This document shows, piece by piece, positions 17,652-38,575 of a stretch of 41,110 nt of DNA; positions within the stretch are counted from its first letter, which is position 1, and each line of letters starts with the position of its first letter. Made by a program: the position numbers and the translations under genes. The DNA is taken from positions 1 through 41,110 of the forward strand of contig PWOD01000233.1 of NCBI GenBank assembly GCA_003557545.1, written 5' to 3'. Below the pieces are notes generated by a model. It was not told where the DNA came from and made no database searches. It saw nothing but the letters and a program-made list of their open reading frames with translations. The stretch comes from a bacterium. GTDB taxonomy: Bacteria > T1Sed10-126.

Positions 17652-19382
17652 ATGGTATGTCAGTATCTTTCTAACTATTATTTGCCTACTCGTAAAGAGG
17701 ATCCCCGGGACGCCGAGATTGTCAGCCATCGGTTGATGGTGCGGGCCGGCATGATCCGTAAATTAAGCAGTGGAGTTTATAGTTTTTTACCTTTGGCCAG
17801 CAGAATACAACATAAAATCGATAATATTGTAAGGGAAGAGATGGATAGAATTGGTGGACTGGAGGTCAAACTTCCAATAATTCAACCTCGGGAACTCTGG
17901 GAAAAAACCGGTAGGTGGGAGTTATATGGTCCTGAAATGATGCGTTTTAAAGACCGACGCGGGGCCGAATATGGGCTGGGACCAACCCATGAGGAGGTTA
18001 TTACCGATCTGTTGAGTTATGAGGTCGATTCCTATCGTGATTGTCCTCTACTTTTTTATCAGATAGCAACTAAATTTCGCGATGAGGTTCGCCCGCGGTT
18101 TGGAATAATGCGAAGCCGGGAGTTTTCTATGAAGGATGCTTATAGTTTTCATGCTGATGAGGAGGATGCCCGGAAAAGTTATCGTGAGGTCGAGGCAGCT
18201 TATTGCCGAATTTTTGATCGGATCGGTTTTGATTACCGTAAGGTTGAAGCGGCCACAGGACAGATTGGAGGGTCATTATCCCATGAATTTATGGTTCTGG
18301 CGGATACCGGTGAGGATCTGATCCTGTACTGTGATAGTTGTAGTTATGCTGCCAACCAGGAGAAAGCAGAGGGAACTGTTGTTATGCCGGAGGAGGAGCC
18401 GGCAAGGGAGCTGGAAAAGTTTCCCACCCCGGGAGTTAAAACAATTGATGATCTGATTAAAATTGACAGCGAGGCCCTCCCTGAGCGCCAGGTCAAAACC
18501 CTGGTTTATCGATCAGGTGACAGACCACTGGTTTTATTGTTGCCAGGAAACTATCAATTGAATGAAGCGGCGGTTGAAGAGCAAGCCGGCGGCCCCCTGT
18601 CTGAGTATAGTGAGGCGGAGATAAAACAGCTGATGGGCGCATATCCAGGCAGCCTGGGCGCTGTAAAACAGGATGCTGCTATCAAAAATCTGCAGGTCTG
18701 GGCGGATCCATCGCTTAAGGGTAGATCTAATCTTTACACAGGAGCTAATATTGACGGGTACCATTATCGGGGAGTCGATGTGGGAAGGGATTTGAAGATT
18801 GATCGGTGGTGTCAACTGCGGGTATCGATCGCCGGTGAGCAGTGTGGTCGTTGTGGAAACGGAAAACTGCAGGAGCAACGGGGAATTGAAGTAGGTCATA
18901 TTTTTTACCTGGGAGATCGGTACAGTCGCTCTCTGGATGCTGATATAACGATGGATGATGGTCAGAAAAAACCAATGATAATGGGCTGTTATGGAATTGG
19001 AACAAGCCGTATAATGGCCGCCGCTATTGAGCAGTCCCATGATGACAACGGGATAATCTGGCCCCGTTCTATAGCTCCTTTTGATATTTATATTTTACCA
19101 ATAAGCTGGGCTAACGATCAGCAGCGTAAGCAGGCGGAAGAATTTGCTCGGATTTTTGAAAAGCAGGGATATGAGGTTCTGGTTGATGATCGGGATGTCA
19201 GTCCCGGGGTTAAATTTAATGATTCTGAACTGATCGGGATTCCTCTGCGTATTACGCTGGGCCGAGCTCTCGAACAGGGTTTGGTGGAGTTGACAGACCG
19301 GGCAACCGGATCAACCCGGGAGATTCCAGTCGAACAGTGCTTGGAGCAGGTTGAGGTGTATCTGACAGAAAATGGAGGCTGA
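17652..19382 (+). CDS. proS: Prolyl-tRNA synthetase (bacterial type)
   Basis: ProS charges tRNA-Pro. It is a class II synthetase with motif 1 around RLMVRAGMIRKLSSGVYSFLPLA, motif 2 in KFRDEVRPRFGIMRSREFSMKDAYSF, motif 3 in MGCYGIGTSRIMAA, and the bacterial editing (INS) domain between motifs 2 and 3 (about residues 220-390). The anticodon-binding domain is at the C-terminus. I chose the ATG at 17652 with GCGAGG about 9 nt upstream, giving 576 aa, close to the family norm. It overlaps the polC start by 11 nt. Confidence 0.96.
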   Translation: MVCQYLSNYYLPTRKEDPRDAEIVSHRLMVRAGMIRKLSSGVYSFLPLASRIQHKIDNIVREEMDRIGGLEVKLPIIQPRELWEKTGRWELYGPEMMRFKDRRGAEYGLGPTHEEVITDLLSYEVDSYRDCPLLFYQIATKFRDEVRPRFGIMRSREFSMKDAYSFHADEEDARKSYREVEAAYCRIFDRIGFDYRKVEAATGQIGGSLSHEFMVLADTGEDLILYCDSCSYAANQEKAEGTVVMPEEEPARELEKFPTPGVKTIDDLIKIDSEALPERQVKTLVYRSGDRPLVLLLPGNYQLNEAAVEEQAGGPLSEYSEAEIKQLMGAYPGSLGAVKQDAAIKNLQVWADPSLKGRSNLYTGANIDGYHYRGVDVGRDLKIDRWCQLRVSIAGEQCGRCGNGKLQEQRGIEVGHIFYLGDRYSRSLDADITMDDGQKKPMIMGCYGIGTSRIMAAAIEQSHDDNGIIWPRSIAPFDIYILPISWANDQQRKQAEEFARIFEKQGYEVLVDDRDVSPGVKFNDSELIGIPLRITLGRALEQGLVELTDRATGSTREIPVEQCLEQVEVYLTENGG

Positions 19383-22300
19383 ACGGTATTGTTTAAAGAT
19401 TACACCGGATAGTTTAAAAGAGCAGCTTCAGGCGGTCCAGACCGCCGGGGGTGATGGAACAGAATATCTTAACTCTGTTTCCCGGGCAGATCTTTGTGTT
19501 GATTTGAAAAATAATAGCTGGGAGTTTCGTTTAACCGGACCGAAAATTCCTCCCCCTGATAATTTTGTCAGCCAGTTAAAACAATATTTTTTGAACTCTG
19601 TTGAGGGATTGAATAATCTTACGTTGCTGACCCAGTCAGCTGCCGAGGATAGTCTTGAGGTCTGGTTTTCTCTCAACTGGGAGAGTTTAAAGATGGAAAT
19701 CTTACAACTTTCCCCGGTGTTGAGAACAGTCCTTGAATATGCTCGTCCGGTTGTCGGTTCAAACAGTGTAGTGATTCAACTGGCCTCTCCGAATGCAATC
19801 GAAATATGTCGTCGCCGCCAGCTTGACACTGTTATTGCCGGCTGGGTCAAAGAGCGTCGTGGCCAGTTACCCAGGGTTGAATTCAAGCTGGGCGATTTCA
19901 AGGGAAAGATCGAGCAGGACGCTCAAAAAATACAGCAGGAAGCAGAGGTTGAAAAAGAGAAACGGCTGCGCCGTCAGCAACTACGGGCGAAAAAACAGCG
20001 CTCGGTGGTGTTGGAGGGGCGAAAGATAAAAAGCTCAGGTGAGCCAATTGAGGAGATACGCACACAGTTGGGTGAGATTGTGACTGTTGAGGGGGTTGTG
20101 ATTGCTGCGGAGTTTGTCAGAACCGGCGGTAAGAAGAAAAATTTTGTTAAGGGAATCATTTCAGACCGCTCGGATTCAGTATCTTTTATGATCTTTATGG
20201 ATGAGGTCAATGAACAGTTATTATCCCTCAAAAACAACTGGCTGAAAATTCGTGGAAGATTAAAGATGGATAATTATCGTCGGCGGAAGAATGAGATTAT
20301 TTTTGTTAATGATGTCAATCGTATTACACCTCGAATCCGTCGGGATGAAGCCCCTGTGAAACGGGTTGAACTACATTGTCATTCTAAGATGAGCCGGCTT
20401 GATGCCACCAGTGATATTCGTGATATAGTCCAGCGAGCTGCATACTGGGATCATCCCGCGGTGGCTATTTCTGACCATGGTGTTGTCCACTCTTTTCCTG
20501 AAGCCGCCCGAGCCGGCGAGGAGTTCGGGGTGAAAATCATCTATGGTATGGAGGGCTACCTGGTCAACGATAAGCGCTGTTTTGTCTTAAATGATTTGGG
20601 ATTTGATAGCTCTCAGCTCTCCCTGGCTGAAGAGTTTATTGTGCTTGACTGTGAAACCACCGGCTTCAGTCCGCTGACTGCCGAAGTTTTCCAGGTGGCT
20701 GCTCTCAGGATACGTAATGGTCAGGTAGTTGATAGTTATAACTCGCCAGTGGCAGTTCATAGAATCTCCTGTTCTTTACTTGATCAAACCCCTCTGACAA
20801 AACAACAACTACTGGATGGTCCCCCTCCCGAGCGGGTTTCTGAGGAGCTGGATCAGTTTATTGGTCAGCTTCCGGTGTTGATTTATGAAGCCAGCTTTGT
20901 CCAAAATTTTCTAAAAAAAATGGGCTATCAGTTTCGTTCTCCGGTTGTCCATTTGCGCCGTCTGGTTGAGAAAATCTGGGCTCCAGGTAGAGCCAACCTT
21001 AACCAGGTCTTTATTAATCGGTTCAAAGAAAAAATAGAACATGAGTTTGATGCCTGCAAGGATGTTCAGAGAACTTTTCAGATCTTCCAGGAAATATCAC
21101 CTAAACTATCTCCTGATCTATCCCTGGATTCAATTAAATCACTGGAAAAACAGGGAGATCATAAGGCCTCTTTTTATCATGTGCTTTTATTGGTGAGAAA
21201 TCGCAAGGGTTTAGAAAACCTCTATAAGCTGGTTTCTCGCAGTCATATCGATTATTTTTATCGCCAGCCCCGGATACTGCGCAGTGATCTGGAGTAGTTA
21301 AGAGAAGGTTTGCTGGTGGGTACGGCCTGTGAACAGGGCGAGATTTTTCAGCGAATCTTACGTGGGGAGTCGGACGGGGACCTTCGTTCTTCAATGAAAT
21401 TTTATGATTTTATTGAACTACAGCCGGTCGATAACAATAAGTTTATGCTCTGTGCTTCGGAGGATAAATATGCCGCAGTATCCTGTCGGGAAGATCTGAA
21501 AAATTTTAACCGTCGTTTGTATGAGTTGGCTGTTAAATCAGGAAAGCCGGTGGTGGGAACCAGTGATGCGCATTTTTTAGATCCGGAGGATGCCAGGTTT
21601 CGGGCTGTTCTTCAGGCCGGCCAAAAATTTGTTGATGCTAATGATCAACCGCCTATTTACCTGAGAACGACCGATGAGATGATTATGGAGTTTGATTATC
21701 TTGGGGAGGATAGGGCCATTCAAATAGCCGTCGAAAACCCCCGTTTACTGGCCAGTAGTTGTGAAAATGTCAGACCTGTGCCGGACGAGTTTTGTCCGCC
21801 TTCGGTGGAAAATGCCCGGGAGATCTTTGAAAATACAATCGCCACTCGTGCCCATCAGCTATATGGTGAAAAGCTTCCTGATCTGGTTGCTGAACGGTTG
21901 AAAAAAGAGCAGCAGGCGATCCTTGGAAATCATTTTGAATCGCTTTATGTGATCTCAGCCCGGCTGGTTGAAAAAAGTCTGGGCGACGATTATCTGGTTG
22001 GATCCCGGGGGTCGGTAGGCTCCAGTTTCGCCGCCTATTTGATGGGGATAACTGAAGTTAATCCTCTCCCACCTCATTATCGTTGTGAACAGTGTGATTA
22101 TGTCGAATTTCCCGGCGATTCCGGGAATATTGTCGGGATTGATCTGGAACAGAAAGACTGCCCTGATTGTGGTAGTTCGTTAGAACAGGATGGTTTTGAT
22201 ATTCCTTTTGAGGTTTTTTGTGGGTTTGATGGAACAAAGATTCCTGATATAGATTTAAATTTCTCTGGTGAATATCAGCAGGAGATATTTCATTATCTTA

Positions 22301-23682
22301 AAAACTTTTTTGGTGAGGGTAATATCTTCCGGGCTGGAACAATTACTACGATCAGTGATCGAACCGCCGCCGGGTTCGCCAATAAATATATTGAAGAATA
22401 TAGCAACACCTCCAGCTGGGCGGAGAAGGAACGTTTGAAATCCGGTATTGAGGGTGTTAAACAGAATACATCCCAGCACCCTGGCGGGATGATAGTTGTC
22501 CCTGAAAATCGTTCTATATATCAGTTTACTCCTATAAACTATCCGGCCAATGATCGTGATTCTAGTTTTTTAACCACTCATTTTGATTATCATTCTATGG
22601 AAGATCAGCTTGTAAAACTTGATATTTTAGGCCATGAAAATCCCACTCAGCTGCGCCATCTTAAGCAATTGACCGGCATTGATCCGGTTACTATCCCGCT
22701 GGATGATCCGCAGACTCTGCAGATTTTTACCGATCTTTCCTCCCTGAATCTTACCGAAGAGGAGCTGGGAATGAAGGTTGGAGTGCTGGGGGTACCAGAG
22801 TTTGGGACGATTTTTGTTCGGGATCTGGTAACCGAAGCAGCGCCAACAAGTTTTGCTGATCTTGTTAGAATCAGTGGACTTTCCCACGGTGAAAATGTCT
22901 GGAATAATAATGCCCGCGATCTGATCAAACAGGGCCGTGCCGATCTTACCTCGGTTATTACCTGCCGGGATGATATTATGAATTACCTGATAAAAAATGG
23001 TTTACCCGAAAACATTGCTTTTCAGATAATGGAGGATGTACGTAAAGGTAAGGGGCTCAAACCAGAATATATCCAAAAGATGCAGGCCTGCCGGGTTCCG
23101 GCCTGGTATATAAAAAGTTGTGATAAAATTAAATATCTCTTTCCTAAAGCCCATGCAGCCGCCTACGTTCTCATGGCCTTCAGAATTGCCTACTTCAAAG
23201 TCCACCATCCGACGGCCTTTTATGCTTCATATCTGAGTCTTAAGGCCGATCATTTGAGTGCCGCTTATATCTGTTCGCTGTCGGCGATTGAAGAGCGGAT
23301 GGAACAGCTGCAGGGAATTATTGAGCAAAAACGCCGTGAGGGTAAAACGGAAAAACGTGATGAGAAAGAATATGGCATCATGGAGGTTTTGAGGGAAGGT
23401 TATTTGAGGGGGATTTCTGTCCGGCCTCCTCGGGTTTCCAAATCAGGACCTTTTCGTTTCAGGGTGGAAAGCGAGCAGCTTATTCGGGCCCCTTATGTGA
23501 CCATAGAAGGGTTGGGAAATACTGTGGCCGAAGGTATAGAGAAAGCCTTTAAAGAGAAACGGTTCACTTCGATTGAAGATCTTCAAAATCGTACCCAGGT
23601 GAATTCTACGGTGACCGAAACAGCGGATGGGCTGGGTTTTTTCGAGGCGCTCCCGCCAACCGAAAATCGCCAGCTGTTTTAG
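19372..23682 (+). CDS. polC: DNA polymerase III PolC, interrupted by one in-frame TAG at codon 642
   Basis: PolC is the replicative polymerase of low-GC Gram-positives. Reading through the TAG at 21295-21297, the gene gives about 1436 residues, close to Bacillus PolC. Domains in order: N-terminal region; OB fold (about 225-325); PHP part (VELHCHSKMS, near 332-340); DnaQ-like exonuclease (about 420-580); remainder of PHP; zinc-binding and polymerase core with QHPGGM and the catalytic D959 and D961 in PDIDLNFSGEYQ and D1084 in KLDILGHE. It ends in NRQLF, similar to the clamp-binding tail. The amber codon falls in RSDLE-stop-LREGLL, where Bacillus PolC has a Lys, and homology is uninterrupted on both sides. 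The exonuclease has D426-x-E428 but lacks the second-motif Asp. The gene ends in TAG with TAA seven codons later. Confidence 0.93.
21295..21297 (+). other. In-frame amber codon inside polC
   Basis: The frame reads GAT CTG GAG TAG TTA AGA GAA GGT. There is no length change, so this is not a frameshift; one base change from GAG, AAG or CAG would explain it. A possible restart is a GTG at 21316 with AGAAGG 7 nt upstream, but those bases encode the conserved REG residues, so the match may be chance. Confidence 0.95.
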
Positions 23683-23716
23683 CTTCAAACTAATACCAGA
23701 TAATGGAGGAAATAAT

Positions 23717-24526
23717 ATGACAGTACCGGTAGCTCTTACGGTGGCAGGATCAGATTCCGGTGGTGGCGCCGGTATACAAGCAGATATCAGGGCTTTTAGC
23801 CGGCTGGGGGTTCATCCCTGTACGGTGATTACAGCTCTGACAGCTCAAAATACTGTGGGAGTTCAGGGGGTTTATCCTGTTTCGGTTGATTTTTTAGTTG
23901 AACAGCTGGAGTCCGTTCTATCTGACATTAAGCTGTCAGCGGTTAAAACAGGAATGTTATTCTCGGCTGAGCTGATCGAACAGGTGGCTGCTCGGGCTCA
24001 AAGCTTTCCCTGGCTGGTAGTTGACCCGGTAATGGTGGCGGAAAGTGGCGATTCTTTGCTCCAGAGTTCGGCTCGGCAAAAACTGGTTAATGAGCTTCTT
24101 CCAAAGGCAGATTTGATAACTCCTAACTGGCCTGAAACCGAGGTCATCGCCGGGGAACTGGGGATTAGTTTAGAGCTTCCTCCTGAACAGCTGGGGCACC
24201 AGATTCAGCAGGCCCTTTCGGGACCTGCAGTTCTTATTAAGGGGGGACATCGTCCTGAAAAAGAAGCGGTTGATCTGCTGTTTGAGTCGAGTGGGTCACA
24301 ACCTCTGAAAATCAGCACTCCCCGGTTAAATAGTTCTAATACCCATGGAACCGGGTGCACTTATAGTTCTCTAATAACCGGTTTTCTTGCCCGTGGTCTG
24401 CAACTGGTTGAATCAATAAGACAGGCTAAAAAGTTTCAACAAAGAGCCCTGGAAAATGGATATGAGTATGGACAGGGAGCCGGGACAATTAATACTCTCA
24501 GCCGGGGACTATTGCCTGACAACTGA
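23717..24526 (+). CDS. thiD: Hydroxymethylpyrimidine (phosphate) kinase
   Basis: ThiD phosphorylates HMP and HMP-phosphate for thiamine synthesis; related enzymes phosphorylate pyridoxal. It is a ribokinase-fold protein with the N-terminal substrate motif AGSDSGGGAGIQADIRAF, TALTAQNTVGVQGV, and the C-terminal ATP/anion-hole motif NTHGTGCTYSS. The ATG at 23717 has GGAGG 7 nt upstream and gives 269 aa, typical for the family. It is separated from polC by 34 nt and does not relate obviously to its neighbours, although TPP is the cofactor of the IorA and transketolase encoded in this window. Confidence 0.92.
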   Translation: MTVPVALTVAGSDSGGGAGIQADIRAFSRLGVHPCTVITALTAQNTVGVQGVYPVSVDFLVEQLESVLSDIKLSAVKTGMLFSAELIEQVAARAQSFPWLVVDPVMVAESGDSLLQSSARQKLVNELLPKADLITPNWPETEVIAGELGISLELPPEQLGHQIQQALSGPAVLIKGGHRPEKEAVDLLFESSGSQPLKISTPRLNSSNTHGTGCTYSSLITGFLARGLQLVESIRQAKKFQQRALENGYEYGQGAGTINTLSRGLLPDN

Positions 24527-37921: not shown

Positions 37922-38575
37922 ATAAATAGGTTTGTCGCAAAAGCAGTTAATCTTTGTAGGCCATCTCAGCTTCCACCGGTTCAATTTGATTTTGAAATTA
38001 TTTCAGGAAAATGGCTTAATTTTGTTGTTCCTCCTGATAGTTCTGAAAATCAGCTGCTGCAACTGGTGAGCCGGGTTGTGGCGGGATTTCACAGACCTGA
38101 TTCCGGACAGCTATTCTATAACGGTTCAAATATCTGGTCCCGCACTTTTAACTTTCGTTCACTGGTCAGGTATCTTTCTACCGATCTGGAGCTTCTGCCC
38201 CGTTTTACTGTTGACCAGAACCTTAAATTTTTCAGTGATCTTTTTGGCCTCCAGGGAACTCTGCCGAAAACTGTGCTTGACTCTATTGATCTTGATTCTC
38301 CTGTTAACTGGTTAACTCAGAATGAACAGCTGCGATTAAAACTGGCTATTTTTCTTATGCATGATCGACCTCTTGCTGTTTGGGCATATCCATTATCCTG
38401 GCTTAACAGCTTTCATCGTGAACTTTGTCTTACTGAGCTGACTAAGTTGCTTGAAACGGATAAACTGCTGGTGAGTTTTGATACCTGCCCCCTGGAAATA
38501 GCTGACAGACAGGTTTCTTTAGAGATTTCGGAAAGTTCTGGAGAAGCTTCCGCGACAGGTCGGTGTAAAAGGTGA
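37922..38575 (+). CDS. CcmA-like ABC ATPase homolog with all ATP-binding motifs lost; start unresolved
   Basis: The frame is open from 37916 (after a TGA at 37913-37915) to 38575. Between 37916 and 38066 it has no ATG, GTG or TTG. I drew the start at the ATA at 37922 because GGAGG lies 10 nt upstream; the GTG at 38066 would remove the whole Walker A region. Over its full length the 217-aa protein lines up with CcmA, the ATPase of the heme/cytochrome-c maturation exporter (RPDSGQLFYNG matches RPDAGEVLWQG; TVDQNLKFF matches TALENLHFY). But Walker A (GSNGAGKTT) reads PPDSSENQL, the signature LSAGQ reads LTQNE, Walker B ILDEP reads VWAYP, and TTH reads FDT. So it is probably a pseudo-ATPase or a decaying gene. 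It overlaps the next gene. Confidence 0.6.
   Translation: MNRFVAKAVNLCRPSQLPPVQFDFEIISGKWLNFVVPPDSSENQLLQLVSRVVAGFHRPDSGQLFYNGSNIWSRTFNFRSLVRYLSTDLELLPRFTVDQNLKFFSDLFGLQGTLPKTVLDSIDLDSPVNWLTQNEQLRLKLAIFLMHDRPLAVWAYPLSWLNSFHRELCLTELTKLLETDKLLVSFDTCPLEIADRQVSLEISESSGEASATGRCKR

Follow-up and report, generated by a model that had tools for sequence, protein, structure and literature searches.

A lone in-frame TAG in the polC gene of a draft bacterial genome is most likely an assembly error

Introduction

The 41,110-nucleotide stretch of DNA analysed here (the window) carries a polC gene, encoding a PolC-type DNA polymerase III alpha, that is interrupted by a single TAG codon. PolC is expected to be essential, as established from Bacillus, and it is tempting to take a lone in-frame stop in such a gene of a draft genome as evidence for recoding. 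The question raised by this locus is whether the TAG is decoded, splits the protein, marks a dead allele or is simply a wrong base. The original prediction had offered pyrrolysine or another amber suppressor, a two-piece PolC and a sequencing or assembly error as possible answers.

Results

polC is intact apart from one codon

The gene starts at ATG 19372 and its natural stop lies at 23680-23682. The TAG is in frame with both ends, and the frame between them contains no frame change and no stop besides this one. The claim that PolC homology runs unbroken across the TAG was borne out: the read-through product matched PRK00448 in one frame over residues 29-1436 (1378 bits), and the two halves, searched separately, scored 267 and 1087 bits, each against its own part of the family. 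OB, PHP, RNase_T, DNA_pol3_alpha and finger domains were identified, with HHH_6 in the C-terminal part. All PHP metal ligands (H335, H337, D344, H369, E394, H625, C653, D732 and H734) are intact, as are the catalytic palm residues Asp959, Asp961 and Asp1084 in the part after the TAG. The family score, the palm aspartates and the PHP motif identify the product as PolC-type; it has the full domain order, catalytic triad and PHP metal site of these polymerases and differs from them in the internal TAG. A search of the draft genome for a second intact polC copy found none. An apparent further break in the frame, at the 3' end of polC, was rejected, as the open reading frame in another frame (23627-24526) is thiD and polC ends normally.

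Table 1. Coordinates of the polC features in the window and of isolated in-frame stops found elsewhere in the same assembly (C129 and C131 are other contigs).
Feature	Location	Strand	Remarks
polC, PolC-type DNA polymerase III alpha	window 19372..23682	+	1437 codons including the internal TAG
polC open part before TAG, 641 aa	window 19372..21294	+	N-terminal domain, OB, first PHP part, exonuclease domain, start of second PHP part
In-frame TAG, codon 642	window 21295..21297	+	between PHP metal residues H625 and C653; sister genome GAG
polC open part after TAG, 794 codons	window 21298..23679	+	remaining PHP, palm, thumb, fingers, HhH
Possible restart run AAGAGAAGG, then TTG (21310) and GTG (21316)	window 21300..21318	+	purine-rich
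folP, TAA	C129 6820-6822		Pterin_bind matched on both sides; sister Tyr TAC
alpha/beta hydrolase gene, TAA	C131 11846-11848		sister Tyr TAT
Sulfotransferase-like gene, TAG	C131 10977-10979		sister Glu GAA; name read from the sequence, not from a family search
DUF4350-like gene, TGA	C129 16316-16318		codon usage and sub-threshold Pfam match; no sister homologue

The stop is not shared with relatives

The window is contig C236. The draft genome to which it belongs comprises 239 contigs (2.15 Mb in all) and is 91.9% complete. Its phylum is represented by two genomes in the compared set, the other being MAG T1Sed10_126 (PWHN01), here called the sister genome. The genome thus lies outside Halanaerobiales, the order to which a link had been drawn, and the pyrrolysine precedent of Acetohalobium does not apply by descent.

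Sister PolC is 60-61% identical to the window PolC, and its codon at the position of the TAG is a single base away from it. The homology comparison with the sister covered part of both genomes. Within the compared part of the window, gene order is common to both, all genes of the window align in a single frame across the syntenic contig, and an internal stop on the gene's own strand with matching flanks occurs in polC alone.

The column of codon 642 is variable among 80 aligned PolC sequences (K49, E14, T5, Q5, A4, R3). The Lys originally expected at the site is thus the commonest residue, but the nearest relative has Glu. A stop occurs in this column in none of the 80 relatives, and no in-frame stop was reported within the PolC matches of 95 genomes from another phylum that also carry PolC. 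The stop is not conserved as recoding would need.

Isolated stops of all three kinds occur elsewhere in the assembly

A codon-usage scan combined with homology was applied to 0.99 Mb of the draft genome to find stops flanked on either side by coding-like sequence. Within the first half megabase, the polC TAG ranked second among 932 candidates. Two groups of candidates were discarded: most of the top codon-usage candidates, where one gene simply ended and the next began, and most nonsense candidates from the sister comparison, which were frames antisense to real genes. Four further isolated stops in otherwise open genes were retained from the 0.99 Mb, three of them well supported (Table 1). At first sight the sister folP and hydrolase genes also appeared to hold conserved stops (one TAG and one TGA, respectively). 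Both were rejected: each gene has a sense codon at the site, the aligned region of folP contains no stop, and the stop near the hydrolase gene lies upstream of it.

With polC included, the tally is two TAG, two TAA and one TGA, where random substitution under the genome's codon usage would give TAG, TAA and TGA at 39, 39 and 22%. The likeliest source residues for random stops are Glu (21%) and Tyr (17%), and the observed stops fall mostly at Glu or Tyr positions. The implied substitution rate is 1.2-2.0 × 10−4 per base, or about 1-2 per 10 kb, which in our judgement plausibly fits the consensus error of a thinly covered draft. The four extra stops are confined to two contigs, and some of them may be genuine pseudogenes, not evenly distributed errors. 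This confinement speaks against an artefact, as does the nature of the TGA case, which is supported by codon usage and a sub-threshold Pfam match.

Exonuclease domain of the phylum's PolC and other sequence features

The PolC exonuclease domain (window 20637-21095, residues 423-575) has lost catalytic motifs II and III in both genomes of the phylum. In the window PolC and its sister counterpart (locus L103), the ExoII motif NxxFD reads ExxFV and the ExoIII motif HHRA reads EFDA; almost all of the 80 relatives in the alignment retain the ExoII Asp and ExoIII His. The phylum's PolC therefore lacks the DEDDh exonuclease signature, although its family score and palm residues are still those of PolC. 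The motif loss is shared with the sister and is unrelated to the TAG. The PHP metal motif is complete (HHDHEHCDH), and PHP or another exonuclease may have taken over proofreading in this phylum. A separate DnaQ-like exonuclease region lies in a frame of about 596 aa in both the window genome (C103:1468-1758, minus strand) and the sister (C41:1336-1623), and is a candidate replacement proofreader.

Group II introns (Rfam RF02004, RF00029) were observed in the polC genes of three genomes of another phylum (loci L230, L231 and L232 in genomes G083, G097 and G096, respectively). Two of the three interrupt the catalytic PDIDL/NFSG motif; the third follows GQHPGG. Elsewhere in the window, a CcmA-like ABC protein (37961-38575) of the cytochrome c maturation cluster lacks recognisable Walker A, signature and Walker B motifs.

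Unlikely alternatives: decoding of the TAG or a broken PolC

Dedicated reading of the TAG, by pyrrolysine or otherwise, would suit the identity of the codon and the prevalence of Lys in its column, and known pyrrolysine genes (methylamine methyltransferases, as in Acetohalobium) likewise have an in-frame TAG with homology on either side. However, polC does not encode a methyltransferase, and the checks for decoding machinery that the original prediction had called for gave no sign of it. The best PylS match in the window genome reached 19.9 bits against a TIGR02367 cut-off of 178, and none of 41 genomes (the window genome and 40 others) passed, although one control genome did. None of the 40 tRNAs found in the draft genome has a CUA anticodon; the model used, RF00005, may miss pylT, and the set is incomplete, with tRNA-Tyr and tRNA-Ala(UGC) absent, probably because of missing contigs. 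Genes for both release factors are present (RF1 with a PET motif, RF2 with SPF). TAG is a working stop in this genome: it ends 78 of the 459 open reading frames of at least 250 codons in the 0.99 Mb, as in upp ahead of ispE and murA ahead of a flagellar gene. With GAG in the sister and the organism outside Halanaerobiales, we consider dedicated decoding next to impossible. Moreover, the extra stops include TAA and TGA, which pyrrolysine or a TAG suppressor would not explain. A more general readthrough, in which near-cognate tRNAs or a suppressor that escaped detection let the ribosome decode the polC TAG, and perhaps further internal stops, often enough to yield full-length PolC, is very unlikely. 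It would account for the conservation of polC on both sides of the TAG; a tRNA may have gone unseen in a genome that is 92% complete and has no tRNA-Tyr, and prokaryotes have been proposed to read through internal stops frequently (PMC7918605). Against this stand the sense codons of all relatives at codon 642, the lack of a CUA anticodon among the 40 tRNAs, the retention of RF1 and RF2, and the rarity of internal stops of all three kinds (5 in 0.99 Mb), unlike what a translational code would give. It is highly improbable that the base calls are real and that the lineage tolerates rare stops of three kinds in the vital genes polC and folP through unusually strong nonsense suppression while keeping both release factors.

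Translation could instead end at the TAG and restart at TTG 21310 or GTG 21316, with the two chains assembling into one polymerase. Both pieces are long and intact, and AGAAGG lies 8 bases before GTG 21316, but the same run encodes a conserved Arg-Glu-Gly (REGL in relatives), which is why it is purine-rich; its resemblance to a ribosome-binding site is probably due to chance. No relative is split at codon 642, and the break would fall inside the PHP active site, parting H335, H337, D344, H369, E394 and H625 from C653, D732 and H734. Mutations in the PHP site make E. coli Pol III less stable and less active (PMC3666897), and since the integrity of PHP matters for stability, a break between H625 and C653 makes the two-piece protein unattractive and, in our view, barely credible. 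It is also unlikely, if less so, that polC has recently been inactivated or truncated in the population and that the second C-family polymerase, DnaE, replicates the genome. A complete-looking DnaE is encoded on another contig (C61; stop-to-stop frame of 1178 aa), and DnaE1-only bacteria are known, as are systems with both PolC and DnaE1 (PMC12926913). At conserved PolC columns after the TAG, the window sequence alone differs at 6 and the sister alone at 1, a weak hint of faster change that is not significant over the whole protein (7:3). However, PolC is intact in the sister genome and close relatives, its 1436 codons apart from the TAG show no decay, and folP in the same assembly has an equally disabling stop. 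Decay of polC as a pseudogene was rejected, as own-only changes (7 versus 3 in PolC, 5 versus 4 in ProS) do not differ significantly, and the conserved-column changes relative to the sister give no clear sign of relaxed selection after the TAG.

Discussion

Our analysis favours the sequencing or assembly error among the options first proposed, and the polC TAG is most likely an artefact of the draft assembly. We reach this reading because the gene differs from its sister at this site by a single codon and is otherwise intact, because no machinery for decoding TAG was found, and because isolated TAA, TAG and TGA codons occur elsewhere in the same assembly. One wrong consensus base would be sufficient, for example where coverage was low or where the assembler picked a read with a minority variant, and the polC of the living cell would be intact and essential. 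Since folP is disrupted in the same way and PolC is expected to be essential, a wrong base is favoured over a cell that tolerates stops. The TAG is thus most likely an error or a minority variant and not a real feature of polC or new biology.

The pattern resembles the consensus errors that give spurious stops in drafts and MAGs, with one substitution in an intact conserved gene, a sense codon in the relative and stops of all kinds in the assembly; it differs from them in that we infer the error in polC from comparisons rather than from read support. Fragmented polymerase genes have been noted in an earlier survey and were partly put down to sequencing or assembly errors (PMC3919608).

Scanning the same assembly for the other two kinds of stop is a cheap test of an apparent recoding event; in this genome the outcome favours error. 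Should the stops prove real, this lineage would be a striking case of nonsense codons tolerated in vital genes.
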